A stretch of 42,659 bases of DNA. Source: Actinomycetota bacterium. Lineage in GTDB: Bacteria; Actinomycetota; Actinomycetes; Streptosporangiales; Streptosporangiaceae. Position numbers and translations under genes: made by a program. Positions 2,932-38,629 of the stretch are shown one piece after another; the stretch's first letter is position 1, and every line of letters begins with the position of its first letter. The stretch lies in NCBI GenBank assembly GCA_021324595.1, contig JAJPIV010000129.1, forward strand, positions 1 through 42,659, written 5' to 3'. The notes under the pieces were generated by a model, which saw only the letters and a program-made list of their open reading frames with translations, was not told the DNA's origin and searched no databases.

Positions 2932-3452
2932 GGAGGGCTGCCGCCCGGGAAGCTGTAGCCGGTCATCAGGTCGGAGAAGCCCAGGCGGCGGTAGAGCCGG
3001 CGGGCGGTCGTCTCCCGGTCGGGCGTCGACAGCATCACGGTGCGCTCCGGCCGCCCGGCGGTCATGGCGAGCATGAGCCGCGTGCCGATGCCCATCCGCT
3101 GGCGGGGCGTGAGCACGTGGATCTCGGCGAGTTCCATGCAGTCGGCGAGCCAGTGCGCGGCGGCGGTCAGCCCGAGGGACCAGGACAGGGCCGACCACAC
3201 GGCGTCGTGCCACCACTGGCCGCCTGCGCCGTGGAACCCGTAGGCGAAGCCGACCACCGGCCCCTCCCGGTCCAGCCGGGCGGTGACCGCGCGGAACGCC
3301 GGGTACCCGGCATGCCGGCGCATCACCTCTCGCCGGCCCGGCAGCCCGTCCGGGTCGGCGCCCATCGCGTCGGCGTAGATCGCGAGCAGCGGGTCGAGCT
3401 CGCCGATGAACTCGGCCGGGCTGAGCTCGGTCAGCACAGGCAGGGACGGCAC
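2847..3452 (-). CDS. GNAT-family N-acetyltransferase
   Basis: An about 201-aa acetyl-CoA-dependent acyltransferase of unknown substrate. The acetyl-CoA loop R-x-x-G-x-G/A appears as [11 protein letters not shown] after strand 4 ([13 protein letters not shown]), followed by the [10 protein letters not shown] motif typical of GNAT C-termini. The W-rich middle ([13 protein letters not shown]) is unusual but occurs in actinobacterial relatives. I chose the GTG at 3452 because the in-frame extension up to 3539 is a low-complexity Gly/Pro/Arg run built from two copies of a 15-bp repeat and does not look like protein. The 3' end overlaps the metF 3' end by 85 bases on the opposite strand. Confidence 0.75.
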
Positions 3453-3609
3453 CCCGCCCAGCCTACGCGATCTGGAGCCGGGCGGGCCGGAGCCGGGCGG
3501 GCCGGAGGCGGCGGTGCGGGGAGGCGGCACGAGGCGCACGCGGGCGGCAGAGAGTGTCAGACCCCGCCGCTAGCTTCGAACGCAGCAGGGAAGCAGGTGG
3601 ACAGCTGAA

Positions 3610-3623
3610 CGAATCTATGTTCG
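3610..3623 (+). promoter_or_regulatory. Possible LexA (SOS) box
   Basis: The 14-mer cgaatctatgttcg matches the actinobacterial/Bacillus LexA consensus CGAACRNRYGTTYG at 11 of the 13 defined positions; the right half GTTCGA is perfect and the left half deviates at two bases. It lies about 120 bases upstream of the HEPN gene, in a locally AT-richer patch. A lone imperfect site can occur by chance. Confidence 0.3.
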
Positions 3624-3741
3624 AATTGATCCGTGGGAGCGCCCTTCGGCCCAGCCCCCTCGGGCCGCTCGGCGCCGGCCGGGCGCGGTGTGGGGAAGCG
3701 CCTCGCCCGGCCAGCCCACGGCGGATCAGGAGGACGTCGCC

Positions 3742-4191
3742 ATGAGCACGATCACGCGGGATCGTCCCGGCAGCGCGCGGTGCCGGGTGGCCCCGTCGGC
3801 CCTGGCGCTGCTTGAGTCGGCGCGCCAGGGCCTGGCCTCGGCCGACGGCGAGGGGCAGGCGGCGGCCAGGTACGTGTGCGCGCACCTGGCGGCCCTGCGG
3901 GCCGCCGCCGCGATCGTGGCGGCCCGGGCCGAGCCGGCGTCCTCCCGGCGGCGGCGCCCGCAGAGCGTGTGGGAGCTTCTCTCCCGGGTCGAGCCGACGC
4001 TGAGCGAGTGGGCGGCGTTCTTCGCCGCGAGCGCGAGCAAGCGCGCGGCCGCCGAGGCGGGGCTCCCGCGGGCGGTCACCAGCCGCGAGGCGGACGAGCT
4101 GCTGCGCGACGCGGCGACGTTCGTCACGCTCGTGGAGGGCGTCCTGGGCGTGCCCGCCCAGCAGGCGCTGCCGCTTCCGACGGCGATCTAG
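3742..4191 (+). CDS. SAV_6107-family HEPN domain protein
   Basis: A 149-aa, mostly alpha-helical protein that I recognise as the SAV_6107-type HEPN family, a conserved actinobacterial group with no established function. HEPN domains are often RNases or RNA binders. The sequence R43-Y-V-C-A-H48 fits the HEPN nuclease signature (R, hydrophobic, three residues, H), though it lies earlier in the chain than in many HEPN nucleases. An Arg-rich linker (about 68-72) separates two helical halves. The ATG at 3742 has an excellent AGGAGG at 3728-3733, eight bases upstream, so the longer frame is rejected. No partner nucleotidyltransferase (MNT) lies beside it, so it is not an obvious HEPN/MNT toxin-antitoxin pair. 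Confidence 0.75.
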   Translation: MSTITRDRPGSARCRVAPSALALLESARQGLASADGEGQAAARYVCAHLAALRAAAAIVAARAEPASSRRRRPQSVWELLSRVEPTLSEWAAFFAASASKRAAAEAGLPRAVTSREADELLRDAATFVTLVEGVLGVPAQQALPLPTAI

Positions 4192-4255
4192 CCGCCGCCG
4201 CCAGCGAAGATGTGGAAGCGACCGTCGCCGCCCGCCGCGGCCTCCCGCAGACGGG

Positions 4256-4753
4256 TCAGGACGCCGGGTCCATCGCGCCCCGGGCGCTGGAGTCCAGCAC
4301 TCCCCAGCTGATCAGCTCCTCGGTCAGGTCGGCGGGGGACTTGTCGTAGATGACCGCGAGGGAGCGGAGGTCCTCCTGGCGGATGGACAGCACGCGCCCG
4401 TTGTAGTCGCCGCGCTGGCTCTGGATCGTCGCCACGTAGCGCGCCAGGGGCCCGGCCTTCTCCCGGGGGAGCTGGGCCATCCGCTCCAGGTCGATGACAA
4501 GCTTGGGAGCGGGCGCGAGCACGCCGGGACTTGAGTCCCCGGGCAGCAGCTCGGAGACCGGGACGCCGTAGAACTCCGCGAGCTCGGCGAGCTTCTGCAC
4601 GGTCACCGACCGGTCGCCGCGCTCGTAGGAGCCGACAACGACGGCCTTCCACCGGCCGCGAGACTTCTCCTCGACTCCGTGCAGGGACAGGCCCTGCTGG
4701 GTTCGAATCGCACGCAACCGGGCGCCAAGGGTCTTTGCGTAGTCAGATGGCAT
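4256..4753 (-). CDS. bldD: Developmental regulator BldD (c-di-GMP-dependent repressor)
   Basis: A 165-aa regulator almost collinear with Streptomyces BldD. The N-terminal helix-turn-helix reads LRAIRTQQGLSLHGVEEKS and continues through GRWKAVVVGSYERGDR. The C-terminal domain keeps the full c-di-GMP signature, R114-G-D116, eight residues, then R125-Q-E-D128, so ligand-driven dimerisation should work as in Streptomyces, where tetrameric c-di-GMP lets BldD repress sporulation genes during vegetative growth. A BldD-type box lies about 45 bases upstream of the start, suggesting autoregulation. It is divergent from the pyrR operon. The nusB-efp neighbours found in S. coelicolor are absent here. Confidence 0.96.
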   Translation of the reverse strand: MPSDYAKTLGARLRAIRTQQGLSLHGVEEKSRGRWKAVVVGSYERGDRSVTVQKLAELAEFYGVPVSELLPGDSSPGVLAPAPKLVIDLERMAQLPREKAGPLARYVATIQSQRGDYNGRVLSIRQEDLRSLAVIYDKSPADLTEELISWGVLDSSARGAMDPAS

Positions 4754-4797
4754 GTTCTCGGGTCCCCTGGGCTGAATTCGTAGGAGCTTGGTGATGG

Positions 4798-4810
4798 TTA
4801 CGGACAGTGA
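4798..4810. promoter_or_regulatory. BldD-type operator upstream of bldD
   Basis: TTAC-GGACA-GTGA fits the inverted-repeat core TNAC-N5-GTNA reported for Streptomyces BldD targets, with A at the centre of the spacer. It lies 45-57 bases upstream of the bldD start codon, a position compatible with repression of its own promoter, as known for Streptomyces bldD. It is about 220 bases from pyrR on the other side. Binding is inferred. Confidence 0.55.
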
Positions 4811-4994
4811 CGGTAGGCCGCGAGCGCGACAAGGTCAAGCCGAACGGCAAAAAGTAACGCAACTCGTGCAGGACGGATTCCCGCTGCCCGCTTCGCTCCG
4901 GCCGGGGCGGCAACCACGGCGCGGGCGCGCCGCGGCCTGGTGGCGGGGCGGCTCGCGGGTGCTGGTAGGTTGAGCGTGACAGACGTCCTTTAAC

Positions 4995-5022
4995 GCTCGT
5001 CCGGTGAGGCGGGCAAGGAGGT
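4995..5022 (+). promoter_or_regulatory. PyrR-binding RNA hairpin next to the pyrR Shine-Dalgarno
   Basis: Bases 4995-5001 pair with 5008-5014 (seven pairs, two of them G-U) around a six-base CGGTGA loop. The sequence GTCCGGTGAGGC (4999-5010) matches the PyrR anti-antiterminator loop consensus ARUCCNGNGAGGYU at most positions. The hairpin ends directly against the Shine-Dalgarno AAGGAGGT (5015-5022). In mycobacteria PyrR is thought to act on translation at such a site: UMP-loaded PyrR would stabilise the hairpin and block ribosome entry to pyrR and the genes coupled to it. No terminator follows, which favours the translational mode. Confidence 0.75.
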
Positions 5023-5028
5023 CCACTG

Positions 5029-5724
5029 ATGGCTGCGATGGTGGGCGCCGCCCGGCCGGGGGCGGGCGACGGCAAGGCGGTCCTGGGCGCCGACGAGATC
5101 CGGCGGGCACTCACCCGGATCGGGCACGAGATCTTGGAGCGTACCGACGGCGGCGGCGACGTGGTGCTGCTGGGCATCCCGACGCGCGGGGTTCCGCTGG
5201 CCCGGCGGCTCGCCGGGCGGCTCGCCCAGGCGGAGGCCGCGGACGTCCCGTTCGGCTCCCTCGACGTCACGCTCTACCGGGACGACCTGAGGCTCCGCCC
5301 GGCCAGGGCGCTCGGCCACACCGAGGTGCCGCCGGGCGGCATCGACGGAAAGATCGTCATCCTCGTCGACGACGTACTCTACTCCGGCCGGACGGTCCGC
5401 GCGGCGCTGGACGCGCTCAGCGACATCGGGCGGCCCCGGGCCGTCCAGCTCGCGGTCCTCGTGGACCGTGGTCACCGGGAGCTGCCGATCAGGCCGGACT
5501 ACGTTGGCAAGAACCTGCCCACTTCCAAGCGCGAGCAGGTCCGCGTCCTGCTGGCCGAGACCGACGGCGTGGACGCGGTCCGCCTGCTGGCAGGACCCGG
5601 CTCGCCGGGGGCAGGGGGCGGCCCGCCCCGGGCAGGCGGCGGCCCGCCGGGACAGGGGGCGCAGGCCCGGCCAGCTGAGTCCCGGCAGCCCGGTGCCGGC
5701 GGGCCGGCTGGCGGTGACCGGTGA
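5029..5724 (+). CDS. pyrR: Pyrimidine operon RNA-binding regulator PyrR / uracil phosphoribosyltransferase
   Basis: A 231-aa PyrR, heading the de novo UMP operon. The PRPP-binding loop [13 protein letters not shown] is at about residues 110-122, and the [11 protein letters not shown] segment (47-57) is characteristic. Family members bind operon leader RNA in a UMP-dependent way and have weak uracil phosphoribosyltransferase activity. The RNA target is probably the hairpin just upstream. The last 40 residues are a Gly/Pro-rich extension absent from compact PyrR proteins of about 180-190 aa. The ATG at 5029 has a near-perfect AAGGAGGT. The stop overlaps the pyrB start as GTGA. Confidence 0.95.
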
Positions 5725-6665
5725 ACCGGCACCTGATCTCCGCGGCCGACCTGAGCCGCCAGGACGCGCTGGACATCCTGGACACGGCCGAGGAGCTCGC
5801 CGGGCTCGCCGGACGGCAGATCCCCAAGCTGCCCACCCTGCGCGGCCGGACCGTGGTCAACCTGTTCTACGAGGACTCCACCCGGACCAGGACCTCGTTC
5901 GAGGTCGCGGCCAAGCGGCTGTCGGCCGACGTGATCAACTTCTCGGCCAAGGGGTCCAGCGTCGCGAAGGGCGAGAGCCTGAAGGACACCGCGCTGACGC
6001 TCCAGGCGATGGGCGCCGACGCGGTGGTGATCCGGCACGGCGCCTCGGGCGCGCCGCATCGCCTGGCCCGATGGGTGGCCGGCAGCGTGATCAACGCCGG
6101 GGACGGCACCCACGAGCATCCCACCCAGGCGCTGCTCGACGCGTTCACGATCCGGCGCAGGCTGGGCCGCGTGGACGGGCTGCGCGTGGCGATCGTCGGC
6201 GACGTGCTGCACAGCCGGGTCGCCAGGTCCAACGTGTGGCTGCTGCACACGCTCGGGGCAAAGGTGACGCTGGTCGCCCCGCCGACGCTGCTGCCCGTGG
6301 CGGTCGGTAGCTGGCCGTGCGCGACCAGCTACGACCTCCCCGCGGTCCTGCCGGTCAGCGACGTGGTGATGATGCTGCGGGTGCAGCGCGAGCGGATGGC
6401 CGACGCCTACTTCCCGAGCGTCCGGGAGTACAGCCGCCGGTACGGGCTGGACGCCGACCGGCTGGCGCTGCTGCCCGGGCACGCGATCGTGATGCACCCC
6501 GGCCCGATGAACCGGGGCGTGGAGATCGCCGCCGACGTCGCCGACTCGCCGCGGTCCACGGTGGTGGAGCAGGTGGCGAACGGCGTCGCGGTCCGGATGG
6601 CGGTCCTGTACCTGCTGCTCGGCGGCGGCACTGCCGGCGCGGCGACCGGGGATGACCGGGGATGA
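5721..6665 (+). CDS. pyrB: Aspartate carbamoyltransferase catalytic chain
   Basis: A 314-aa enzyme that joins carbamoyl phosphate to aspartate in the second step of UMP synthesis. The carbamoyl-phosphate motif [13 protein letters not shown] is at about 49-61, HPTQALLD near 134, and [12 protein letters not shown] near 257. The GTG start overlaps the pyrR stop. No pyrI regulatory chain is nearby, so control is expected through PyrR. The stop lies in a run of GATGACCGG repeats shared with the start of pyrC. Confidence 0.96.
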
Positions 6666-6728: not shown

Positions 6729-8021
6729 GTGCTGATCAGGGGCGCACGGGTCCTAGGCCGCGCCGCGGCGGACATCGTCATCGGCGACGGCGTGATCACC
6801 GAGCTGGCCGAGCCGGGCCGGGGAACGGCCGCCGGCCGCCAGGTCATCGACGCCACCGGCCTGATCGCGCTCCCCGGCCTGGTGGACCTGCACGCCCACC
6901 TGCGCGAGCCGGGCCGTGAGGACGCCGAGACCATCGCCAGCGGCACCTCGGCGGCCGCGCTCGGCGGGTTCACGGCGGTGCACGCGATGGCCAACACCGA
7001 GCCGGTCGCCGACACCGCCGGCGTGGTCGAGCAGGTGTGGCGGCTGGGCCGCGAGGCCGGCCACTGCGACGTCCAGCCGGTCGGCGCGGTGACCGCCGGG
7101 CTTGGCGGGACCCGCCTGGCCGAGCTCGGCGCCATGGCGGACTCGGCGGCGCGGGTCCGCGTGTTCTCCGACGACGGGCGGTGCGTGGCCGACCCGGCGC
7201 TGATGCGCCGGGCGCTCGAGTACGTCAAGGCGTTCGGCGGGGTGATCGCCCAGCACGCCCAGGAGCCGGGCCTGACCAGGGAGGCCCAGGTCAACGAGGG
7301 GGTGATCTCCGCGCGGCTCGGCCTGGCCGGATGGCCGGCCGTGGCCGAGGAGGCGATCGTCGCGCGGGACTGCCTGCTCGCCGCGCACGTCGGGTCGGCG
7401 CTGCACGTCTGCCATGTCTCCACGGCCGGCTCGGTGGAGATCATCCGGTGGGCGAAGTCGAAGGGCTGGCGGGTCACCGCCGAGGTGACCCCGCACCACC
7501 TGCTGCTCACCGAGGACCTCGCCGCCGGCTACGACCCGGTCTACAAGGTGAACCCGCCGCTGCGCACCGCCACCGACGTGGCCGCGCTGCGGGCGGGGCT
7601 GGCCGACGGGACCATCGACTGCGTCGCCACCGACCACGCCCCGCATCCGGCCGAGGCCAAGGAGACCGAGTGGGCGGCGGCGGCGTTCGGCATGACCGGG
7701 CTGGAGACCGCGCTGCGGGTGGTTCACGAGGCGATGGTCAGCAGCGGGCTGCTCGACTGGGCCGGCGTCGCCGACCGGATGTCGGCCCGGCCCGCGGCGA
7801 TCGGCCGGATCGGCGGCCGGCACGGCTGCCCGGTCGCGGCCGGGTCCCCGGCCAACCTGGTGCTCTACGACCCCGCCCCGCTGCGGCTGGTCGACCCGGC
7901 CGCGCACGCCTCGCGCAGCCGGAACACCCCGTTCGCCGGGATGAAGCTCCCCGGCCAGGTGATCGCCACGTTCCTGCGGGGCCGCCCGACGGTGCTCGAC
8001 GGGAAGCTGGCCGGGCGGTGA
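6729..8021 (+). CDS. pyrC: Dihydroorotase
   Basis: A 430-aa zinc amidohydrolase closing carbamoyl-aspartate to dihydroorotate, the third step of UMP synthesis. The metal-binding HAH is in [13 protein letters not shown] near residues 60-72, KVNPPLRT (about 273-280) follows, and the DHAPH motif is near 302. I chose the GTG at 6729 because GGAGGAG (6715-6721) lies seven bases before it and the protein then begins [10 protein letters not shown], as in relatives; the upstream ATGs at 6672 and 6684 fall in the repeat run. The stop overlaps the carA start as GTGA. The membrane-protein gene I recall between pyrC and carA in Streptomyces is missing. Confidence 0.95.
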
Positions 8022-9259
8022 GGGCGCGGGTGACCGAGGCGGCGCGGGTGACCGAGGCGGCCGGCGTGCCCGGCCCGGCCGCCGCGCGGCCCGCCGGGCA
8101 GCCCGCGATGCTCGTGCTGGAGGACGGCACGGTCTTCCGGGGCACCGGGTTCGGCGCGCCCGGCGAGGCATTCGGGGAGGCCGTGTTCAACACCGGCATG
8201 ACCGGCTACCAGGAGACGCTTACCGACCCGTCCTACTGCCGGCAGATCGTTGCGATGACCGCGCCGCACATCGGGAACACGGGGGTCAACGACGAGGACG
8301 ACGAGTCCCGGCGGATCTGGGTCAGCGGCTTCGTGATCCGCGAGCCGTCGCCGGTGGTGTCGAGCTGGCGGGCGACCCGCTCGCTCGCCGACGACCTGCG
8401 CGCCCGCGGGGTCACCGCGATCGCGATCAGGGACACCCGGGCGCTCGCGCTCCGGCTGCGGGCCCACGGGGCCATGCGGGCCGCGGTCAGCACCACCGAG
8501 GACGACCCGGCGGCGCTGCTCGCCCGCGTGCGCGCCAGCGCGCCGATGACCGGCGCCGACCTCGCGCGCGAGGTCAGCACCCCCGTGCCCTACGTGGTCC
8601 GCCCCCCGGGCGGGACGCCGGCCAGGTTCCGGGTCACCGCTGTGGACCTGGGCATCAAGTCCGCGACCCCCCGGGCGCTGGCCGCGCTGGGCTGCGAGGT
8701 CCGGGTGCTGCCCGCCACGGCCACCGCCGGGCAGATCCTGGCCACCGAGCCGGACGGCGTGTTCTTCTCCAACGGCCCGGGCGACCCGGCGGCCTGCGGC
8801 TACGCGGTCGAGGCGATGCGGGGCGTGCTGTCCGCGCGGGTGCCGATGTTCGGCATCTGCCTGGGCAGCCAGATCCTCGGCCTCGCGCTCGGCCTGCGCA
8901 CCTACAAGCTGAAGTTCGGCCACCGGGGGGTGAACCAGCCGGTGCGCGACCTGGCCACCGGCAGGGTGCGGATCACCAGCCACAACCACGGCTTCGCCGT
9001 GGCGATGCCGGCCAGCGCCGGGTTCGGCACGGCGTTCGGCCCCGCGCAGGTCACCCACGTCAACCTGAACGACGGGGTCGTCGAGGGGCTGCGCCTGACC
9101 GAGGCGCCGGCCTTCGCCGTCCAGTTCCACCCGGAGGCGGCTCCCGGACCGCACGACGCCACCGGGCTCTTCGGAGAGTTCTGCGAGCTGATGGAGCGGC
9201 ACCGCCGGCCCCGCGGGACGGGCCAGGCGCCCGCGGGGGCGACGGGGGAGGGAGCCTGA
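8018..9259 (+). CDS. carA: Carbamoyl-phosphate synthase small (glutaminase) subunit
   Basis: A 413-aa glutamine amidotransferase that passes ammonia to CarB. The N-terminal CPSase small-chain domain starts at [20 protein letters not shown] after about 30 residues containing a repeated RVTEAA. The class I nucleophile cysteine is in FGICLGSQ, with Ser where E. coli has His; I recall non-His residues there in other actinobacteria. SHNHGFAV and the catalytic HPE of [11 protein letters not shown] follow. Both ends overlap neighbours: GTGA with pyrC and TGATG with carB. Confidence 0.96.
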
Positions 9260-26171: not shown

Positions 26172-26914
26172 CCGGGCGGGCCGGCCAGGGCGCGCGCGTG
26201 ACCGGGCCGCAGGCGGCCGCTGCCGATGTCGGCGCGCTGCCCTTCGGCGTAGCCGTCACCGTACCCGCTGCCGGTGTAGGTGACCTTGGACATCCGCGTC
26301 ACCGGGTACGCCAGCGCGACCTGCCGCCGCACGATCGCGGACCGGTCGGCGAGCACGAGCGCGGCGCGCTCGGATGAGCCCGGCCGGCCCGCGCCGGCGC
26401 CGCGCGCTGCCCGCAGCTCGGCGTCGCGGACCCGCGCGATCACCGCGGTGGCGAAGCCGAGCAGCCAGCTCCGCCGCCAGGCCCGCGGGTTCCGGCTGTG
26501 CCCGGGGACCCGCGCGGCGGCCAGGCCGTGCCACATCTGGACCAGCAGCGAGGTGTAGAGCAGGTCGGTCCGCTCGATGTCGGAGGCAAATCCGAAGACA
26601 TGCACCCGGCTTCCCGGCCGGCGGCCGGTGAGCAGCACGCACTGGCATCGCAGCGCGCCGGCGAGCCCGCAGAGCAGGTGCGCCTTCTCGCGGCCCCACG
26701 GATTGTCGATGTCCACGATGCGGTTGGCCGGCCGGTCCGTCTCGGGCCGGTCGGCGGCGAGCAGCGCCCGGTCGATGCCGTACCTGGCCATCAGCTCGGC
26801 GGCCTTGGCGGTCAGGGCCTGCGCCTCCTGCGGGGTCACGCCGTCGGCCTCGGCCTTGGCCAGCAGCTTGCGCACCCGGTCGAGCAGCCGGCCCGGTGCC
26901 TCGGTGTCCAGCAC
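26168..26914 (-). CDS. DUF2786 domain protein
   Basis: A 248-aa protein. The N-terminal about 45 residues ([20 protein letters not shown], then [20 protein letters not shown]) are the DUF2786 helical hairpin. The following region, with [20 protein letters not shown] and an arginine-rich [15 protein letters not shown] segment, matches the companion domain often found after DUF2786. The function is unknown; relatives occur in actinobacteria and phages. The GTG at 26914 has AAGGAGGG close upstream; the longer upstream frame is antisense to rpe and is rejected. It lies tail to tail with rsmB and head to head with rpe, interrupting an otherwise same-strand run. Confidence 0.8.
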
Positions 26915-27025
26915 GTGCCCTCCTTCGCCGGAGCGCTCGAGCTCCGCGGACTGGCGTACCTTCGCGAACCTAGCGGATGGCGGGGACATCGCCCGGCCGA
27001 GTGCGCCCGTAGACTGCGGCATGTC

Positions 27026-27739
27026 ATGAGCGTGCGGATCTCGCCGAGCCTGCTGGCCGCCGACTTCGCCCGGCTGGCCGACGAGGCCGCCGCAGTGGCG
27101 GGCGTGGCCGACTGGCTGCACGTCGACGTGATGGACGGCCACTTCGTCCCGAACCTGACGGTTGGCCTGCCGGTCGTGGCCGCGCTGCGCAGGCACGCCG
27201 CGCTGCCGCTCGACTGCCACCTGATGATCTCCGACCCGGACCGGTGGGCGCCCGACTACGCGCGGGCCGGCGCGGAGAACGTGACGATCCACGCCGAGGC
27301 CGCGGCAGCCCCGGTCCGGACTCTCCGGACGATCCGGGCCGCCGGCGCCCGGGCGGGCCTGGCGGTCAACCCGGGAACGGCGGTCGAACCCTACGCCGAC
27401 CTGCTCGGCGAGGTGGACATGCTGCTTATCATGACCGTCGAGCCGGGCTTCGGCGGCCAGCCGTTCCTCGACCTTGTGCTGCCGAAGGTCCGGCGGGCGC
27501 GCGAGCTGATCGCCCGGCATGGCGGCGAGATCTGGCTCCAGGTGGACGGCGGGGTGGACGAGCAGACCATCGGGCGCTGCGCGCAGGCCGGCGCGGACGT
27601 GTTCGTGGCGGGCACCGCGGTGTTCGGCGCCCAGGACCCCGCCGCCGCCGTGAAGGCACTGAGGTCCGCGGCGCAGGACGCGCTGGCCGGCCGCCCCGCT
27701 CCCGGCGCGGCCGACGGCGGCCCAGCCACGCGCGGATGA
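27026..27739 (+). CDS. rpe: Ribulose-phosphate 3-epimerase
   Basis: A 237-aa TIM-barrel metalloenzyme interconverting ribulose-5-P and xylulose-5-P. The start [12 protein letters not shown], the metal and catalytic [14 protein letters not shown] (about 32-45), the [12 protein letters not shown] loop and VDGGVDEQT are all present. The last about 20 residues are a Pro/Gly-rich tail. In many actinobacteria rpe is followed by ribD and the riboflavin genes; here an about 8-kb block separates them, and the CRISPR-like repeats begin 18 bases after the stop. Confidence 0.95.
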
Positions 27740-27757
27740 TGCACCAGGTCAGCGAGC

Positions 27758-27846
27758 GTCGTCCCCGCCCGCGCGGGGGTCATCCGGATTGATCGGCCCA
27801 CCCGTCCGCGATGGTGGTGTCGTCCCCGCCCGCGCGGGGGTCATCC
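27758..27846 (+). CRISPR. Two-repeat type I-E-like CRISPR remnant
   Basis: Two identical 28-bp repeats at 27758-27785 and 27819-27846 flank a single 33-bp spacer, a 61-bp period as in type I-E arrays. The repeat opens gtcgtccccgcccgcgcggg and contains a 6-bp CCCCGC/GCGGGG stem around a four-base loop, close to I-E repeats known from actinobacteria; orientation by the repeat is plus. The flanking bases differ on both sides, so the identity stops exactly at 28 bp. A third unit at the next 61-bp step (27880) matches only about 12 of 28 bases and is not counted. No cas genes lie in the window and no AT-rich leader is seen. Confidence 0.65.
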
Positions 27847-27932
27847 CGTCCTCCCGGCTGCGGTGCGCCGGGCGGCTGGCCCTCCCCCGATCCGGCGTCG
27901 CCGGGGTGGCCGGCCCGCTACAGTCGGATGCC

Positions 27933-28610
27933 GTGACGCGCAGGCCGCTTGAGGAGATCGTCGAGCCGGGATGGGCGCGGGCGCTGGCGCCGGTGGCCGG
28001 CCAGATCGCCTCGGCCGGGGACTTCCTGCGCGCCGAGGTGGCGGCCGGCCGGTCCTACCTGCCCGCGGGCGACCTGGTGCTGCGCGCGTTCACCCAGCCG
28101 TTCGACCAGGTCCGGGTGCTGATCGTGGGCCAGGACCCGTACCCGACGCCCGGCCACCCGGTCGGGCTGAGCTTCTCGGTGGCCCCGGGCGTGCGGCCGC
28201 TGCCGCGCAGCCTGGTGAACATCTTCCGCGAGTACGCCGACGACCTCGGCTACCCGGTGCCATCCAGCGGCGACCTGAGCCCGTGGACCGAGCGGGGCGT
28301 GCTCCTGCTCAACAGGGTGCTGACCGTCCAGCCCGGCAAGCCGGGGTCGCATCGCGGCAAGGGCTGGGAGGCGGTGACCGAGCAGGCGATCCGGGCGCTG
28401 GCCGCCCGGCCCGGCCCGCTGGTGGCGATCTTGTGGGGCCGGGACGCGCGGAGCCTGGCGCCGCTGCTGCGCGGCGCCGGCCTGGTGGAGTCGGCCCACC
28501 CCAGCCCGATGTCGGCGGATCAGGGGTTCTTCGGCTCCCGGCCGTTCAGCCGGGCCAACGAGATGCTCCGGAGGCTGGGCGGCGAGGAGATCGACTGGAA
28601 GCTCCCGTAG
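27933..28610 (+). CDS. ung: Uracil-DNA glycosylase, family 1
   Basis: A 225-aa base-excision repair enzyme. The water-activating motif [18 protein letters not shown] is at about 66-83; Pro replaces the His of classic GQDPYH, as in other actinobacterial Ung proteins. The minor-groove and catalytic loop [11 protein letters not shown] is near 189-199. GRDA and the [10 protein letters not shown]-terminus also fit. I chose the GTG at 27933 because the homologous sequence starts there; there is no strong Shine-Dalgarno. It stands alone, 86 bases after the CRISPR repeats. Confidence 0.93.
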
Positions 28611-28663: not shown

Positions 28664-31255
28664 ATGAACCCGCCGGCCGACCGCATCGGCGACCTCGCGG
28701 GCGCCGGCGACGGCTCCGAGGCCGCGGGCGGCACCGCCCCGTTCGTGGCCGTCTCCGGGCTCGCGGTGAGCTTCGGCTCGGTCCGCGCGCTCGACGGGGT
28801 TGACCTTGAGGTCATGCCCGGCGAGGTGGTCGCCCTCGCCGGGGAGAACGGCGCGGGGAAGACCACGCTGGTCCGCTGCCTGGCCGGCGACATCGCGCCG
28901 ACCAGCGGCCAGATCCTGCTGGGCGGGCGGCCGTTGCCGCCCGACCCGCTGTCGGCCGCCAGGCGCGGCGTCGGCGTCGTCTGGCAGGACCTGGCGCTGT
29001 GCGAGAACCTGGACATCGCGTCGAACCTGCTGCTCGGCCGCGAGCGCCGCCGTCAGCTCCTGTCGGACGTGCGGATGCACGCCGACGCCGCCGCGCTGCT
29101 CGCCAGGCTCGGCATCCCGCTGGCCGACACCACCCGCACGATCCGCGCCCTGTCCGGCGGCCAGCGCCAGCTGGTCGCCATCGCCCGGGCGATGGTGGGA
29201 GAGCCCGCGCTGCTGTTGCTCGACGAGCCGACCGCGTCGCTGAGCCTGCGGCATGCCGCCCAGGTGGAGGAGCTGATCGCCGCGCTCCGGGAGCGGGCGA
29301 CGACGATCGTGATCGCCTGCCACGACATCGACCTGATGTTCCGGCTCGCGGACCGCATCGTGGTGCTGCGCCACGGCCGCGTCGCGGCCGAGGCCGATCC
29401 CGCGGCCGTCCACCCCGACGAGGTCGCCGCGCTGCTGTCCGGCCAGGAGCTGGACTCCTCGCCCCGGCGCCAGCTGACCCGGCTGCACGGACTCACCGGC
29501 CGGCTGGTCGCCGCCGACCCGTCGTCCAGCCTGTCGCTGATCCTGTCCGCGCTCGGCGCCGCCCTGGGCTCCGACCGGCTGTGCATCCATCTGGCGGCCG
29601 GCGGCGAGCTGGCCTGCGCGGCCTCGTTCGGGCTGCCCGATGCCCTGCTCGCCCGGTGGTCCAGGCTGCCCGCCGGCCCGGACGGCGGCCCGGTGGGCCT
29701 GGCCGCCTCCGTCTCCAGGCCGGTGATCGTCGAGGACGCCGCGGCCGGCTGGGGCCCGTTCGCCGCGCTGGCGGCGTCCTGCGGCATCGCCAGCTCCTGG
29801 TCGGTGCCCGTCCTCGCCCGCGATGGGCTGGCGGGCGTGATCACCGGATTCAGCGACGTGCCGGGCAAGCCCGAGCGGGACCAGCTCGACCTGGTCACCG
29901 TCTACTCCGGCTACGCGGCGAGCGCGATCGAACGGGACCGGCTGCTGGACGAGGTCACCGAGCGCAACCGGGTGCTGGAGACGATCCGGGAGGTCCTCGA
30001 GACGCTGGCCGGCCCGATCGCCGTGGGCGAGGGGCTCGGCATCGCCCTCCAGGCGCTCTGCGCGGGCCTGCAGGCCGACGAGGTCCGGCTGCTCACCTGG
30101 TCGGCGGAGGGGGAGCCGAGGTGCCGTGCCCGCGCCGTCGGCGGAGGCGAGCGGATGCGCCGGGCGCCGCCTAGGCCCCGCGGCGGGCTGCCCGCCGTCA
30201 CCGACCTGTTCGACCAGCGGCACGACGGGACGGCGCGGCAGATACCCGGCGAGGACGGCCGCTGGTACCTGGCGGTCACGTTCGGCGCGCCGGGCGGCCC
30301 GAGCGTGCTGCTGGCGAGCTGGCGGTCCGGGCCGCCGACCACGGAAGCGGCGGTCCTGGCCGAGGACGCGGCGCACTCGCTGCGCCTGGCGCTCGAACGG
30401 GAGCAGGCTGGCCTGGCGCTGCAGGAGGCCACGGCGCTGCGCCGGTCGCAGGAGCTCCAGCGCGAGTTCCTCACCCGGCTCAGCCATGAGCTGAGGACCC
30501 CGCTGACCGCCATCCGCGGCTACGCGACCAGCCTGCTGCAGCCCGACGTGACCTGGGACGCCGACTCGCAGCAGCGGTTCCTCGCCCGGATCGCCACCGA
30601 GTCCGCCAGGCTCGGCAGGCTCGTCGACGACCTTCTCGACTTCTCCGCGATCGAGCTCGGCATCCTGCGGCTGCAGCCGGACTGGTGCGACCTTTCCCTG
30701 GTGCTCGAGGCGGCCGCGGCGTGCCTGCCGCCGGAGCGCTCGGCGGCCGTCGGGATCTCCTGCGCCCCCGGGCTGCCGGTGGTCTGGGCCGATCACGACC
30801 GCCTGGAGCAGGTCTTCGTGAACCTGCTCGGCAACGCCTTCGCTCACAACCCGCCGGGGACCGCGGTCCGGGTGCGCGCCGAGCCAGCCGGCGCCGGGAT
30901 GGTGGCCGTGACGGTCGCCGACGACGGAGTCGGCCTGCCCCCCGAGGTGGCGGCCGCGCCGTTCGAGCCGAGGCGGGGCCGGCGGACCAGGAGCGCCGGG
31001 GCCGGCCTTGGCCTGTCGATCGCCCGGGGGATCGTGGCCGCGCACGGCGGCCGGATCGACGTGCGGCCGGCGGATGCGGGCACGTGCTTCGTGGTGCTGC
31101 TGCCGGTCGAGGACGGCGCCCGCGGGGAGGACGGCACGAGGCCCGGCACGGCGGTGCCCGAGTGGCCCGCCGTGGCCGGGCGGGCGGCGCGTGCCGCGCC
31201 GGGGCGCGGACGGCCGGGCGGGCGGGCGCGGAGGGGGGTGGCAGCTAATGGCTGA
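28664..31255 (+). CDS. Hybrid sensor: ABC ATPase domain fused to GAF-like regions and a histidine kinase
   Basis: An 863-aa soluble protein with no membrane segment. Residues 27-260 are a full ABC ATPase of the sugar-transport type: Walker A GENGAGKT (60-67), Q-loop Q108, signature LSGGQ (163-167), Walker B LLLLDE (183-188) and H-loop His220. Residues about 283-420 and 430-575 look like two GAF-type regions joined by a helix. The kinase core follows: phospho-acceptor His608 in LSHELRTPL, N-box N720/N724 in FVNLLGNAFAHN, G1 box DDGVG (753-757) and G2 box GAGLGLS. Every catalytic element needed by both halves is present. The C-terminal tail (about 820-863) is Arg/Gly-rich. The stop overlaps the response regulator start by eight bases. 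The fusion suggests sensing tied to sugar transport; ligand and permease partner are unknown. Confidence 0.9.
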   Translation: MNPPADRIGDLAGAGDGSEAAGGTAPFVAVSGLAVSFGSVRALDGVDLEVMPGEVVALAGENGAGKTTLVRCLAGDIAPTSGQILLGGRPLPPDPLSAARRGVGVVWQDLALCENLDIASNLLLGRERRRQLLSDVRMHADAAALLARLGIPLADTTRTIRALSGGQRQLVAIARAMVGEPALLLLDEPTASLSLRHAAQVEELIAALRERATTIVIACHDIDLMFRLADRIVVLRHGRVAAEADPAAVHPDEVAALLSGQELDSSPRRQLTRLHGLTGRLVAADPSSSLSLILSALGAALGSDRLCIHLAAGGELACAASFGLPDALLARWSRLPAGPDGGPVGLAASVSRPVIVEDAAAGWGPFAALAASCGIASSWSVPVLARDGLAGVITGFSDVPGKPERDQLDLVTVYSGYAASAIERDRLLDEVTERNRVLETIREVLETLAGPIAVGEGLGIALQALCAGLQADEVRLLTWSAEGEPRCRARAVGGGERMRRAPPRPRGGLPAVTDLFDQRHDGTARQIPGEDGRWYLAVTFGAPGGPSVLLASWRSGPPTTEAAVLAEDAAHSLRLALEREQAGLALQEATALRRSQELQREFLTRLSHELRTPLTAIRGYATSLLQPDVTWDADSQQRFLARIATESARLGRLVDDLLDFSAIELGILRLQPDWCDLSLVLEAAAACLPPERSAAVGISCAPGLPVVWADHDRLEQVFVNLLGNAFAHNPPGTAVRVRAEPAGAGMVAVTVADDGVGLPPEVAAAPFEPRRGRRTRSAGAGLGLSIARGIVAAHGGRIDVRPADAGTCFVVLLPVEDGARGEDGTRPGTAVPEWPAVAGRAARAAPGRGRPGGRARRGVAANG

Positions 31256-31952
31256 CCAGCACGGCAGGACGCGGGCCCTGCTCGTGGAGGACGACCCGAA
31301 CATCGTGGACCTCATCCGGTCCAACCTGGCCGTGCGCGGCTTCGACACGGTGATCTCCGCGGACGGGTCGCGGGCCCTCCAGCTCCTGGACACCGAGGCT
31401 CCCGACATCGTCCTGCTCGACCTGATGCTGCCCGAGGCGGACGGGTTCGAGCTGTGCCGGCAGATGCGGGAGCGCTCCGGGGTCGCGATCATCGTCGTCT
31501 CGGCCAGGGGCGGCGAGCGCGACAAGGTCACCGCGCTGAACATGGGCGCCGACGACTACATGACCAAGCCGTTCAGCATCGAGGAGCTGCTCGCCCGGAT
31601 CACGGCCACCCTCCGCCGGACCAGGCCCGCCCCGCCACCGCCGGCCGCCTCCCAGGTCATCGAGGTCGGCGACCTGCGCATCGACCTCGCCAGCGAGCAG
31701 GTGCTGCGGCGCGGGGAGCGGGTGCACCTGACGCCGACCGAGTTCGCCCTGCTCCGCGAGCTCGTCACCAACCGGGGCAAGCTGCTCACCCACGCGCACC
31801 TGCTGCGCCGGGTCTGGGGGCACGGCTACGAGACCGAGACCGAGTACGTGCGGGTCTACGTGCGCAGGCTCCGCTCGAAGCTGGAGGACGAGGGCGGTGT
31901 GCCGCTGATCCTGACCCAGCCGCGGGCCGGGTACCGGTTCGCACCGGACTAG
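31248..31952 (+). CDS. OmpR/PhoB-family response regulator
   Basis: A 234-aa regulator. The receiver has the acidic pair in VEDDPN, phospho-acceptor Asp58 in LLDLMLPEADGF, Ser85 and Lys107 in YMTKPF. The C-terminal winged helix begins near 137 (VIEVGDLRIDL) and has LTPTEFALLRELV, the recognition segment YVRVYVRRLRSKL and the RAGYRF end. It resembles KdpE-like members. Because it overlaps the hybrid kinase gene, it is surely the partner. Likely targets are the transporter genes 234 bases downstream, but I cannot point to a convincing direct-repeat operator. Confidence 0.95.
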   Translation: MADQHGRTRALLVEDDPNIVDLIRSNLAVRGFDTVISADGSRALQLLDTEAPDIVLLDLMLPEADGFELCRQMRERSGVAIIVVSARGGERDKVTALNMGADDYMTKPFSIEELLARITATLRRTRPAPPPPAASQVIEVGDLRIDLASEQVLRRGERVHLTPTEFALLRELVTNRGKLLTHAHLLRRVWGHGYETETEYVRVYVRRLRSKLEDEGGVPLILTQPRAGYRFAPD

Positions 31953-32166
31953 CCCGGCCAGCCGGAGCGAGCGGCCGGGCGGAGCGGGTCCGCGGGGCGG
32001 GGCCGTCGAGCCGGGGCGGGACCATCGCGCGCGGCGGCGGCCACCGCGGCCCGGCGTATTCCGCCAATAGGCTCGCGTTAATGGAATTTTCATGCCGTGC
32101 GGCAGATGTTAACGGCCACGTTCATCCCGCGACTTCTAGAGTTCAGCTCGACAGGCGGCTGCGGGC

Positions 32167-32186: not shown

Positions 32187-33455
32187 ATGGCGCCGGTCCG
32201 GTCACTGGCGGCCGATCCAGCCAGCACGACGAAGCGGGTGGTGCAGTTGCAGCAAGTAACCAGGAAGGTCGCCCTCACGGCGACGGTCGCGGGCCTGGCC
32301 GTCGTCGCCGCGGCCTGCGGCAGTTCATCGAACAAGCCTTCTGGCGGCAGCCACAGCAGCGTCGCTGTGCCGCAGATCTCGGCCACGCAGTTCAACCGCA
32401 CGTTCTCCGTAATGGCCGAGCTCAAGCCGCTCGCCAAGATCGGCAAGGGGAACGTCGCGGTCATCCTTCCCGACACGGTGTCCTCGGCCAGGTACACCGA
32501 GTTCGACGCGCCGTACCTGACCAAGGCGCTGGAGGCGGCCGGGCTGTCGGCCTCGCAGTTCACCGTCCAGAATGCCCAGGGCAGCGATGCGACGGAGCTG
32601 AGTGACGCGCAGACCGCCATCACCAAGGGCGCCACCGTCCTGATCATGGACCCGCTCGACTCCGGCGTCGGCGCGGCGATCGAGAAGTACGCGGCGGCGC
32701 ACGGCGCGGCCGTCATCGACTACGACCGGCTCACCCTCGGCGGCAGCCGCAAGTACTACGTCAGCTTCAACAACGTCAAGGTCGGCAACCTGCTCGGCCA
32801 GGGCCTGGTGCAGTGCGTGAGCGCCTGGCACGTCGCCCACCCGAACGTCCTCGTCATGTACGGGTCGCCGACGGACAACAACGCCACGCTCTTCGGCGAG
32901 GGCTACAACGCGGTCCTCGGCCCGCTGTTCAAGTCGGGCAAGTGGAAGGAGGTCGGCAAGGCTCCGGGAACCTGGGACCCGCCGACCGCGCTGACCGAGT
33001 TCCAGCAGCAGTTCACCGCGCATCCGAGCATCAACGCGCTGCTGTCGCCCAATGACGAGAACGCGGCGCCGATCATCAGCTACCTGCAGAAGAAGGGGAT
33101 CAAGCCCAGGACGTTCCCGGTGACCGGCCAGGACGCCACCCTGGTCGGCCTGCAGAACATCCTGGCCGGGTACCAGTGCGGCACCGTCTACAAGCCGATC
33201 TACCTGGAGGCGCAGGCCGCGGCCGCGCTCGCGATGTACCTGCGGGCCGGGGTGACCCCGCCGGCCGCGCTGGCGAACGGGACGACGATGGACACCACGT
33301 CGCACGTCGCGGTGCCGTCCGTGCTCTTGACTCCCACCTGGGTGACGACGTCGAATATGGCGAGCACGGTCATCGCGGACAACTTCGTGCCCGCATCGCA
33401 GCTGTGCACGGCCAAGTACAAGGCGGCCTGCCAGGCGGCCGGGATCTCGGGGTAG
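32187..33455 (+). CDS. Sugar ABC transporter substrate-binding lipoprotein
   Basis: An about 422-aa periplasmic-binding-protein-type receptor of the ribose/xylose (XylF/RbsB, type 1) family. Residues about 19-46 form a lipoprotein signal: basic stretch, hydrophobic TATVAGLAVVAA, then AAAC-GSSS as lipobox. The mature part starts with VAVILPDTVSSARYTEFDAPYL, followed by DPLDSGVGAAIEKYAAAHGAAVIDYDRL, as in XylF-like proteins. The ATG at 32187 has GGAGG with eight-base spacing; GTGs at 32238 and 32241 would give a more usual, shorter signal peptide and are real alternatives. The ATPase and permease follow, so it should deliver the ligand to them. Confidence 0.9.
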   Translation: MAPVRSLAADPASTTKRVVQLQQVTRKVALTATVAGLAVVAAACGSSSNKPSGGSHSSVAVPQISATQFNRTFSVMAELKPLAKIGKGNVAVILPDTVSSARYTEFDAPYLTKALEAAGLSASQFTVQNAQGSDATELSDAQTAITKGATVLIMDPLDSGVGAAIEKYAAAHGAAVIDYDRLTLGGSRKYYVSFNNVKVGNLLGQGLVQCVSAWHVAHPNVLVMYGSPTDNNATLFGEGYNAVLGPLFKSGKWKEVGKAPGTWDPPTALTEFQQQFTAHPSINALLSPNDENAAPIISYLQKKGIKPRTFPVTGQDATLVGLQNILAGYQCGTVYKPIYLEAQAAAALAMYLRAGVTPPAALANGTTMDTTSHVAVPSVLLTPTWVTTSNMASTVIADNFVPASQLCTAKYKAACQAAGISG

Positions 33456-33489: not shown

Positions 33490-34398
33490 GTGGTGACGCC
33501 CTCGGACGGTGCCCGGCCCGCCGCGGCGGGCCGGGCACCGTCCGGCCAGGGCGGGCCGGGCCAGCGGCACGCGGCCGGCGACGGCCGGGCCGGCGGAGCG
33601 CCGCTGCTGCGGCTGCGGGGGCTCGGCAAGCGGTTCGGGCCGGTGCAGGCGCTCTCCGGCGTGGACCTCGACGTGCCGGCCGGGCAGGTGACCGCGCTCG
33701 TCGGTGACAACGGCGCCGGCAAGACCACGCTGATCAAGTGCGTCGCGGGCATCTGGGAGCCGAGCGAGGGCGAGATCATCTGGAAGGGCCACCCGGTGCA
33801 CGTGCGCACGCCGCGGGACGCCTCGGCGCTCGGCATCGCGACCGTGTACCAGGACCTGGCGCTCTGCGACAACCTGGACATCGTGCAGAACATGATGCTC
33901 GGGCACGAGCCGCGCAAGTTCGGCCTGCTCGACGAGGTCGCGATGGAGCTGACCGCCAGGCGCACCCTCGCCGACCTGGCGGTGACCACCGTGCGCTCGG
34001 TCCGGCAGACCGTCGGCTCGCTCTCCGGCGGCCAGCGCCAGTCGGTGGCGGTCGCCAGGGCGGGCATGCAGGAGGCCCAGCTCGTCATCATGGACGAGCC
34101 CACCGCGGCGCTCGGGGTGAGCCAGACCGAGCTCGTGCTCGCCCTGATCACGCGGCTGGCCCAGCGCGGGCACGCGGTGATCGTGATCTCGCACAATCTC
34201 AACGACGTGTTCCGCGTCGCCGACCGGATCGCCGTGCTCTACCTCGGCCGGCTGGTCGCGGACGGCCCGGCCGCCGAGTTCGACCGGCAGTCGGTGGTCG
34301 ACATCATGACGACGGGCACGTCCCTGCGCCGGGGCAGTGGCGCGAGCTCCCGTGAGGGCGCGCTGCCCGCGGCGCCGGACACCGGCTGGGAGGTCTAG
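33490..34398 (+). CDS. Sugar ABC transporter ATP-binding protein (single ATPase domain)
   Basis: A 302-aa ATPase. Walker A GDNGAGKT (72-79), the Q-loop in TVYQDLALCDNLDI, signature LSGGQRQ, Walker B VIMDEPTAALG and H-loop His in VISHNLNDVF are all intact. It has one ATPase domain, whereas RbsA/XylG/MglA proteins usually have two in one chain of about 500 aa, so it must pair with itself or with another ATPase. The first 37 residues are low complexity, and their codons contain a 42-bp perfect palindrome; no later in-frame ATG, GTG or TTG precedes the domain. The permease starts two bases after the stop. Confidence 0.92.
   Translation: MVTPSDGARPAAAGRAPSGQGGPGQRHAAGDGRAGGAPLLRLRGLGKRFGPVQALSGVDLDVPAGQVTALVGDNGAGKTTLIKCVAGIWEPSEGEIIWKGHPVHVRTPRDASALGIATVYQDLALCDNLDIVQNMMLGHEPRKFGLLDEVAMELTARRTLADLAVTTVRSVRQTVGSLSGGQRQSVAVARAGMQEAQLVIMDEPTAALGVSQTELVLALITRLAQRGHAVIVISHNLNDVFRVADRIAVLYLGRLVADGPAAEFDRQSVVDIMTTGTSLRRGSGASSREGALPAAPDTGWEV
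33503..33544. repeat. 42-bp perfect palindrome at the 5' end of the ATPase gene
   Basis: Two 20-base arms are exact reverse complements around a self-complementary GC dinucleotide, so the whole 42 bases read the same on both strands. In RNA it forms a very stable hairpin covering roughly codons 5-19 of the ATPase. No T-run follows. Between a binding-protein gene and its membrane-part genes such structures often protect or stop the upstream message. Confidence 0.95.
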
Positions 34399-34400
34399 CC

Positions 34401-35723
34401 ATGGCAGTGCCCACGCAGGAGCCGACGCCCGGCGGGCGGCGGGCGGTGGTCGCGGCCGAGCCCGAGTCCGCCGCGCCGGTCGACGTCACCGGCGTCGGGG
34501 CGCCCGACCTCATCGCGGACTCGTTCGGCGAGTACGCGCGGATCTGGTTCCGGCGGATCCGCAGCGGAGAGAGCGGCGTGCTGCCGGTCGTGATCGGGCT
34601 GATCGGGATCGTGATCTACTTCCAGGTCCGCAACGCCCGCTTCCTGTCGGCGGGCAACCTGGTCAACCTGATGACCCAGGCGGCGTTCCTGGTGACGTTC
34701 GGGATGGCCGAGGTCTTCGTGCTGCTGCTCGGGGAGATCGACCTGTCGGTCGGCTACAACGCCGCGCTCGGCGCCGTGATCACGCTCTGGCTGCTCGCGC
34801 ACCCGTTCCCGCTCTGGCTCGCCGTCCTGGCCGGCCTGGCGTTCAGCTCCGCCTACGCCGGCGTCCAGGGCCTGATCGTGACCCGCCTGGGGCTGCCCTC
34901 GTTCGTGGTCACCCTCGCCGGGTACCTGTGCGGGTTCGGCCTGCTGCTGTTCCTGATCAACACCGCGGCGCCGAACTCGGGCGGCACGATCTCGCTGACC
35001 AACAACATCCTCGCCGACATCGAGTACGGCTCGCTGAGCCCGGTGGCCAGCTGGGTCGTGATGCTCGCCGCGGTCGCGGCCACCGCCGTCTTCATGATCG
35101 TCCGGGATGCCCGCAGGCGGGCGAACCGGCTTGCCGCCCCGCCGCTCAGCGTGACCTTGCTGAAGATCGCGATGATGGCGCTCGTGGGCGTCGCCGTGGT
35201 GCTGGTGAGCAACATCAACAGGAGCCTGAGCGCCACGGTCATCGCCGGCGTGCCGTGGGCCGTGGTGCTGATCCTCGCGCTGCTCGTCGCGTTCACCGTG
35301 CTGCTCAACCGCACCAGGCTCGGGCGGTACGTCTACGCGATCGGCGGGAACGCCGAGGCCGCCCGCCGGGCCGGCATCAACGTCGGCCGGATCAAGGTCC
35401 TCGCGTTCACCCTCTGCGGCCTGACCGCCGGCATCAGCGGCCTCATCTACGCCTCGAACCTGCAGTCGATGTCCAACAACTTCCAGGGCGGCCAGTACGT
35501 TCTCTACGCGGTAGCGGCGGCCGTGATCGGCGGCACCAGCCTGTTCGGCGGCCGCGGCCGGATGGTGGGCGCGGTCCTCGGCGGGCTCGTGGTCGGCGTG
35601 ATCTTCAACGGCCTGTTCCTGCTCGGCCTGGGCCCGGCGGCCCAGAACATCTGGTCGGCCGTCGTGCTGCTGGCGGCGGTGCTCGTGGACGCCCTCGCCA
35701 GGCGGGGAGCGGCGGCCCGGTAG
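34401..35723 (+). CDS. Sugar ABC transporter permease (ribose/xylose type)
   Basis: A 440-aa membrane protein of the RbsC/XylH family. After a soluble N-terminal about 55 residues there are many hydrophobic segments (GVLPVVIGLIGIVIYF; FLVTFGMAEVFVLLL and others). The family signature GEIDLSVGYNAALGAV lies near 112-127, GLPSFVVTLAG near 165, and IGGTSLFGGRGRMVGAVLGG in the C-terminal half. A cytosolic Arg-rich loop near 235-245 likely contacts the ATPase. It completes the binding protein-ATPase-permease set; the substrate is probably a pentose or related sugar but is not determinable. Confidence 0.93.
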   Translation: MAVPTQEPTPGGRRAVVAAEPESAAPVDVTGVGAPDLIADSFGEYARIWFRRIRSGESGVLPVVIGLIGIVIYFQVRNARFLSAGNLVNLMTQAAFLVTFGMAEVFVLLLGEIDLSVGYNAALGAVITLWLLAHPFPLWLAVLAGLAFSSAYAGVQGLIVTRLGLPSFVVTLAGYLCGFGLLLFLINTAAPNSGGTISLTNNILADIEYGSLSPVASWVVMLAAVAATAVFMIVRDARRRANRLAAPPLSVTLLKIAMMALVGVAVVLVSNINRSLSATVIAGVPWAVVLILALLVAFTVLLNRTRLGRYVYAIGGNAEAARRAGINVGRIKVLAFTLCGLTAGISGLIYASNLQSMSNNFQGGQYVLYAVAAAVIGGTSLFGGRGRMVGAVLGGLVVGVIFNGLFLLGLGPAAQNIWSAVVLLAAVLVDALARRGAAAR

Positions 35724-36059: not shown

Positions 36060-36739
36060 GTGTTCACCGGAATCATCGAGGAGCTCGGGACCGTCGCCGC
36101 GCTCGAACGGCGCGCCGAGTCGGCGCAGCTGACGGTCGGGTGCCCTGTCATCGCGGCGAGCCTTGAGCCGGGCGGCTCGGTCGCGGTCAACGGCGTCTGC
36201 CTGACGGTCACCCGGGCCGCCGGCGGCAGGTTCACCGCGGACGTGATGGGGGAGACGCTGGCCAGGAGCGGGCTCGGCGCGCTGGCCCCCGGCGACCCGG
36301 TCAACCTGGAGCGGCCAGTGCCGGCCGCCGCCCGGCTGGACGGCCACATCGTGCAAGGGCACGTGGACGGGACCGGCCGCGTCGCCGGGCGCCGGGCTGC
36401 CGATGGCTGGCAGGTGCTGCGCATTGGCGTGGGCCCGGGGCTGTCGCGGTACCTGGCCGAGAAGGGCTCGGTGGCGGTCGACGGCGTCAGCCTGACCGTG
36501 TCTGCGGTCAGCGAGGCCGGGGGCGCCGGCCCGCGGCCGGGCGGCGAGAACTGGTTCGAGGTGAGCCTCATCCCGCAGACGCTGGCGCGGACCACGCTCG
36601 GGGCCCGGAATCCCGGGTCGGTGGTGAACATCGAGGTCGACGTGCTCGCCAAGTACACCGAGCGGCTGCTGGCATGGCACGGCCGGCTGCCTGCGGCCGC
36701 GGGCCTTTCGGCCGCCCGGCCCGCCGCCGGGGATCCGCG

Positions 36740-36743
<4 letters not shown>
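36060..36743 (+). CDS. ribE: Riboflavin synthase
   Basis: A 227-aa riboflavin synthase (alpha-type) dismutating two lumazines to riboflavin. The N-terminal [12 protein letters not shown] is diagnostic. Two lumazine-binding repeats are seen, each with a [16 protein letters not shown] strand; [12 protein letters not shown] marks the start of the second and ARTTLG lies near the end. A small Gly/Pro insert (about 150-160) lies in the second repeat. The GTG start is placed by the GGGAGGGG just upstream. The stop overlaps ribBA as GTGA. Confidence 0.96.

Positions 36744-38629
<1,886 letters not shown>

Follow-up and report, generated by a model that had tools for sequence, protein, structure and literature searches.

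In the BceRS-BceAB system of Firmicutes, a histidine kinase reads the activity of an ABC transporter and the regulator induces the transporter genes, and in the PhoR-PhoU-PstB system an importer exerts control over the kinase by means of its ATPase subunit (PMC6978683). In the XylFII-LytS system of Clostridium, a XylF-type sugar-binding protein feeds a histidine kinase (PMC9769921, citing Li et al. 2017). How the kinase reads the state of the transporter is an open question for both BceS and PhoR-PstB, where the contact is made between separate proteins. Here we describe a locus in which an ABC ATPase domain is covalently part of the kinase. It is located in a stretch of 42,659 nucleotides (hereafter the window; positions 1 to 42,659 of contig JAJPIV010000129.1, assembly GCA_021324595.1) from a member of the Streptosporangiaceae, phylum Actinomycetota. 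The module consists of genes, all on the forward strand, for a kinase that carries an ABC nucleotide-binding domain (NBD), a response regulator and a sugar ABC transporter. We think it rather likely that these genes form a transporter-coupled two-component system, with the NBD of the kinase docking on the permease and sensing the state of the transporter.

The kinase gene (28664..31255) is a single open reading frame of 863 aa. The NBD (residues 28-259; 28745..29440) was identified from a Pfam match to ABC_tran (residues 43-191, E 5.9e-34), from the AlphaFold2 (AF2) model and from matches to PDB structures, and its motifs are complete: Walker A GENGAGKT (60-67), Q-loop WQD (107-109), signature LSGGQR (163-168), Walker B LLLLDEPT (183-190) and the H-loop histidine H220. 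The domain is of the single-NBD CUT2 type, and the tandem NBD pair of approximately 500 aa found in MglA and XylG is absent; the top NCBIfam matches were YtfR, AraG and a xylose ATPase, all far under the cut-off. The first GAF domain (residues 285-423; 29516..29932) matched GAF_2 and GAF in Pfam (1.6e-9 and 6.6e-9). Toward the C-terminus follow HisKA (residues 599-665; 30458..30658; 1.1e-18), with the phospho-acceptor H608 encoded at 30485-30487, and HATPase_c (residues 710-816; 30791..31111; 3.7e-22). The kinase part contains the motif HELRTPLT with H608, N724 and the motifs DDGVGL and AGLGLS, and HELRTP is invariant among the fusion kinases compared. A preliminary description of the window had proposed one chain with a complete ABC ATPase and a complete HisKA/HATPase_c kinase, and both translation and Pfam showed its coordinates, motifs and His608 to be right.

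The same description had placed two GAF-like regions in the protein. The second of these (residues 454-553; 30023..30322) has no Pfam match, and because a fold search with the full model returned NBDs throughout, this piece was modelled separately. The resulting AF2 model (pLDDT 83) displayed a GAF/PAS-like fold, with VIA-align Z scores of 9.4 to phosphodiesterase GAF domains and 9.1 to DosS GAF-A, and a best Foldseek E-value of only 2.7e-3. Thus, one of the two regions is recognized by Pfam and the other by its predicted fold. The AF2 model of the whole kinase, built from an alignment of 27 sequences, had a mean pLDDT of 80.8 and a pTM of 0.38; since the pTM is low, the model does not fix the mutual placement of the domains. 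Its NBD has pLDDT values mostly above 90 and matched PDB structures at Z 26-28. From the NBD, the chain is predicted to run through a linker helix (266-283), the first GAF domain, a long helix (405-449), the GAF-like fold and a helix (560-624) that continues into the HisKA hairpin. No transmembrane stretch was found in the kinase, for which the best 19-residue hydropathy was 1.5, as compared to 2.8 in the permease, and hydropathy and model both place its domains in the cytosol throughout.

Approximately 35 other loci, spread over several classes of actinobacteria, encode the fusion. When genome contigs were scanned with the whole kinase as query, 13 additional fused proteins were returned, 39-63% identical to it. 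The main survey was run on whole genomes with a profile of the NBD tail, the linker and the first GAF domain, and because the query is the NBD-GAF linker the survey is unbiased by the neighbouring genes. Some of the weaker profile matches in the genome scans were plain GAF proteins. Counted over sampled genomes, with the centre genomes included, true fusions were present in 4 of 396 genomes of the phylum and in approximately 14-15 of 151 genomes of the family, both counts including the genome of the window itself. For three classes the counts were 4 of 66 genomes (that of G258), 5 of 247 (that of G575, Acidimicrobiales) and 4 of 199 (that of Conexibacter). Outside the Actinomycetota, no fusion was identified at E 1e-15 in 146 genomes of the Myxococcota (the phylum of L023), nor at the same threshold in 249 genomes of the phylum of L033, both weak negatives with no positive control in the phylum. 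The plasmid search gave no match.

The assembly containing the window is fragmented into 168 contigs, which would be compatible with a junction of two genes through an assembly or frame error. This explanation was rejected, its likelihood being close to nil, since the fusion recurs on independent contigs at the approximately 35 loci, one of them on a complete chromosome, NZ_CP097127.1 from Conexibacter sp. S30A1. The claim of an ATPase covalently built into the kinase is upheld. In a tree of NBDs, a branch with support values of 100/99 parts the kinase NBDs from the transport NBDs; some long-branched outgroup rows fall among the kinase NBDs. As judged from the sequences compared, the fusion likely arose once. 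The preliminary description had also stated that no characterized example exists, and we found no account of the fusion in the open-access literature searched, which is weak support as most queries returned no paper.

The regulator gene (31248..31952) starts with an ATG at 31248 inside the kinase gene, whose stop codon ends at 31255, giving an overlap of 8 bases. The protein is of the PhoB/OmpR type, with Response_reg and Trans_reg_C domains, and its best NCBIfam matches, MtrA and PhoB, were below the cut-off. The genes that follow encode a periplasmic sugar-binding lipoprotein similar to XylF and ChvE (Peripla_BP_4; 32238..33455, the start being uncertain within 32238-32247), the transporter's stand-alone ABC ATPase, which has a single NBD (302 aa; Pfam; 33490..34398), and a CUT2-type sugar permease (BPD_transp_2; 34401..35723) in which a putative coupling loop, NAEAARRAGINVGRI, is conserved. 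Reading frames and Pfam thus bear out the order described earlier, an overlapping OmpR-type regulator gene and then a sugar ABC transporter. By its tested features, the protein is a histidine kinase with an NBD of CUT2-like sequence, and its regulator is of the PhoB type.

This arrangement is conserved. A survey for a sugar permease near the fusion had been suggested, and at all 29 intact loci with enough contig, which include the first loci found with the whole kinase and represent several actinobacterial classes, the kinase gene is followed by genes for a regulator, a binding protein and a CUT2 permease. Six loci cut by contig ends (L011, L014, L069, L075, L076 and L099) are outside this count. 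The module genes diverge in correlation (r 0.67-0.93). At L074, a decaying copy of the module lies beside rpe and ribE (3441-5675, 5582-6034); the first GAF domain is deleted and the regulator broken, and the transporter genes are gone, with kinase and regulator decaying alongside. A stand-alone ATPase gene is located between the binding-protein and permease genes in 27 of the 29 operons. The remaining two, L063 (G258) and L092 (G553), encode the kinase, the regulator, the binding protein and a permease that retains the putative NBD-coupling motif, so that the kinase NBD is the sole ATPase encoded beside the permease. L092 is also distinguished by two permease genes resembling those of sugar ABC importers (the one checked being BPD_transp_1) that precede the kinase gene, and by glpX after the module.

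The gaps between the regulator and binding-protein genes hold GTTMAY-like half-sites as paired direct repeats 11-12 bases apart, and these pairs often double, 31-32 bases apart. The window contains two such boxes, which are candidate sites for the response regulator: box 1, GTTAATGGAATTTTCAT (32077..32093), and box 2, GTTAACGGCCACGTTCAT (32108..32125), 31 bases from box 1. Scans of the whole window with the patterns KTTMAYNNNNNDTTHAY and KTTMAYNNNNNNDTTHAY returned a single match each (0.01 and 0 expected, respectively), both in this gap. A hexamer similar to a -10 element, TAGAGT (32137..32142), follows 11 bases after box 2. Strict boxes were present in 20 of 32 loci (0.04 expected), looser ones in 23 of 30 (L063 and L092 excluded; 0.4 expected), and a box, a spacer of 10-12 bases and TAnnnT in 25 of 32 as compared to 0.05 expected, the spacer being exactly 11 bases in 22; since the patterns were formed on the same sequences, these chance figures are valid for the pattern and not for the search. 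Because this conserved arrangement of box and -10 element precedes the binding-protein gene, it is very probable that the transporter is under the control of the regulator. A scan of the window's own genome with one box gave 4 matches, as compared to 1 for a backward-pattern control, and for this reason our claim of regulation is confined to the operon. The three extra single boxes in that genome (G000 C60:14853, C102:63621 and C128:43416) may represent PHO-box-like sites of other regulators. The boxes are absent from the two loci without a stand-alone ATPase, L063 and L092, in the latter of which the binding-protein gene lies directly 3' of the regulator gene; this layout suggests that in these loci the binding protein and permease are co-produced with the sensor rather than induced.

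We compared 34 kinase NBDs with 28 partner ATPases. The Walker residues K66, D187 and E188 and the Q-loop residue W107 were kept in all 34 kinase NBDs, Q108 in 33 and D109 in 32, and the best-kept 12-residue windows start at 55-61, 105-107 and 181-183. The signature glycines G165 and G166 were kept in 30 and 31, respectively, and H220 in 30. At the catalytic positions no variation was seen among the 28 partner ATPases, which have Y, F or H where the kinase NBD has W107. The H-loop histidine is replaced by arginine in L018, L020, L021 and L092, and the signature is altered in several relatives. In L092 the Q-loop reads VWGDLGL, having lost its glutamine, the signature LGRGQ and the H-loop TRD, and this NBD is almost surely without hydrolysis, as judged from its motifs. 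Erosion of catalysis in the kinase NBDs is well supported by this comparison, and, given the losses of the H-loop histidine, of intact signatures and of the L092 Q-loop glutamine, hydrolysis cannot be a requirement of the family as a whole.

These results bear on two other roles for the NBD. It could be a working subunit of the transporter that forms a pair with the stand-alone ATPase, or a homodimer, and so powers uptake in addition to sensing. All motifs are intact in the window protein and in most relatives, and in L063, where the operon lacks a stand-alone ATPase, the kinase keeps WQD, DEPT and the H-loop histidine; nevertheless, we judge this role improbable, given the arginine in the H-loop of four members, the altered signatures and the stand-alone ATPase in 27 of 29 operons, which could homodimerize. 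At the other extreme, the NBD could have been left behind by a gene fusion as a passive part whose sole use is to aid dimerization, with the GAF domains sensing a small molecule. Ligand sensing is common for GAF domains, and the eroded signature and H-loop indicate relaxed catalytic constraint. However, in L018, L020 and L021 the first GAF domain is reduced and the second GAF-like fold absent, whereas the NBD and the kinase are never missing; it is the GAF domains that are dispensable. Walker A, Walker B and the Q-loop are, moreover, the most conserved parts of the NBD, and we regard a passive NBD as very improbable.

In the transporter-coupled mechanism that we favour, a cytosolic kinase would carry its own copy of the ATPase domain of the transporter. 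This NBD would dock on the CUT2 permease at its coupling loops, in place of the transport NBD or in exchange with it, and read whether the sugar-loaded binding protein engages the permease. The signal would consist of nucleotide binding, not turnover, together with a changed arrangement of the NBDs. It would travel along the linker helix, by way of the GAF domains and the long helix, to the HisKA dimer, which would set, in a direction and with a sign that we infer, the phosphorylation of the regulator encoded by the overlapping gene. The phosphorylated regulator would bind the paired direct repeats and activate the promoter of the genes for the binding protein, the ATPase and the permease. Docking fits the observations that the permease is nearby at every locus with enough contig for a check, that the Q-loop is conserved and that the kinase NBD is the sole ATPase in two operons. 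The Q-loop and the segment that follows it, VVWQDLALCENLDIASNLLLGRE (residues 105-127; 28976..29044), contain the conserved W107, Q108 and D109, and in known ABC proteins the residues that come after the Q-loop are turned toward the coupling helices of the permease. Of the earlier suggestion that ATP turnover or docking sets the kinase activity, docking thus agrees with the data, whereas turnover is weakened by the H-loop and signature losses. The sugar is likely a monosaccharide, because the binding protein is XylF/ChvE-like and a galactokinase-like (GHMP) gene is located just 5' of the module in L020 (6684-7718) and L021 (6640-7965).

Several observations weigh against this mechanism. The data do not support a docking surface under special protection: the entropy ratio to the partner ATPases was 1.59 for the Q-loop segment and 1.47 for the whole NBD, whereas the signature, at 5.28, is clearly eroded. 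The Q-loop moreover has a part in binding nucleotide, and its conservation is therefore not specific to docking. The competent transport ATPase in 27 of 29 operons means that docking needs an exchange of NBDs or a mixed pair. Correlated divergence is also expected from plain vertical inheritance of an operon, and L012-L014, L098 and L100 do not fit the promoter pattern. With respect to the two operons without an ATPase, the stand-alone ATPase of another CUT2 operon in G258 could serve the L063 permease in trans, and the G553 genome is only 64% complete, so that its ATPase may be located elsewhere. The other operon of G258 (L081 4308-9097) is complete for binding protein, ATPase and permease and has a ROK regulator.

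The kinase NBD could alternatively sense energy or nucleotides without any contact to the permease; within the kinase dimer, an ATP-bound NBD homodimer would report ATP/ADP, and the transporter would be a regulated target only. The invariant Walker A and B motifs (34 of 34) and the lack of a transmembrane part agree with such a sensor, and the transporter promoter would by itself account for the operon linkage. Yet it would have no need for a lasting linkage to one permease type, the altered signature, H-loop and Q-loop glutamine of L092 should spoil an ATP-sandwich dimer, and a permease and binding protein without an ATPase in L063 and L092 are left unexplained; we consider it unlikely. Tentatively, the importer of these two loci might be a pure receptor, in which binding protein and permease relay the sugar signal over the membrane to a kinase whose NBD has taken the place of the ATPase, without powered transport. 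If so, the five-gene operons would represent a working transporter that shares its permease with such a receptor, and an ABC importer would have been turned into a transmembrane sensor.

Some neighbouring genes vary between loci. A second Peripla_BP_4 gene lies directly 3' of the permease gene in L020 (14200-15414) and L018 (6289-7413), in the latter followed by a gene for a GAF-HisKA_3 kinase (7465-9132), and a second histidine kinase, 30-36% identical to the fusion kinase, is encoded downstream of the module in L101 (16973-17500) and L102 (15635-16168). In the window, the module is located between rpe/ung (26498-28610) and ribE-ribBA-ribH (36060-38619). A functional link to the riboflavin genes was rejected, since only close relatives have the module at this site and distant loci do not, suggesting a chance placement.

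As in BceRS-BceAB, a kinase-regulator pair would have an ABC transporter as both partner and target. In that system the kinase, BceS, is a separate protein in the membrane and BceAB transports peptide antibiotics, whereas the fusion kinase is cytosolic, with no hydrophobic stretch found, and carries the NBD itself, and its partner permease is of the BPD_transp_2 family of CUT2-type sugar importers, unlike the MacB-like BceAB. The PhoB-type regulator and the direct-repeat boxes, which we take to resemble PHO boxes, recall PhoR-PhoU-PstB; in that system, however, PstB, PhoU and PhoR are separate proteins, and the operon of the module contains neither a PhoU-like gene nor a Pst transporter, only genes for a binding protein, an ATPase and a CUT2-type permease. 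The transporter itself is built like the XylFGH and ROK-xylFGH importers of the CUT2 type, with binding protein, single-NBD ATPase and BPD_transp_2 permease from the same families, but an NBD-bearing kinase and a regulator replace the ROK regulator, and two operons lack the stand-alone ATPase. In XylFII-LytS the kinase has a periplasmic domain of its own, which the binding protein touches; the fusion kinase, with nothing in the membrane or outside it, would depend on the permease for relay. Some actinobacteria may in this way read the arrival of sugar directly from the transporter, and as the contact domain would lie inside the kinase, docking, nucleotide binding and hydrolysis could be told apart within one protein by point mutants in the Q-loop, Walker A and H-loop. 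By analogy, the module would work like the sensing by BceS-BceAB and PhoR-PstB, while belonging to neither system.
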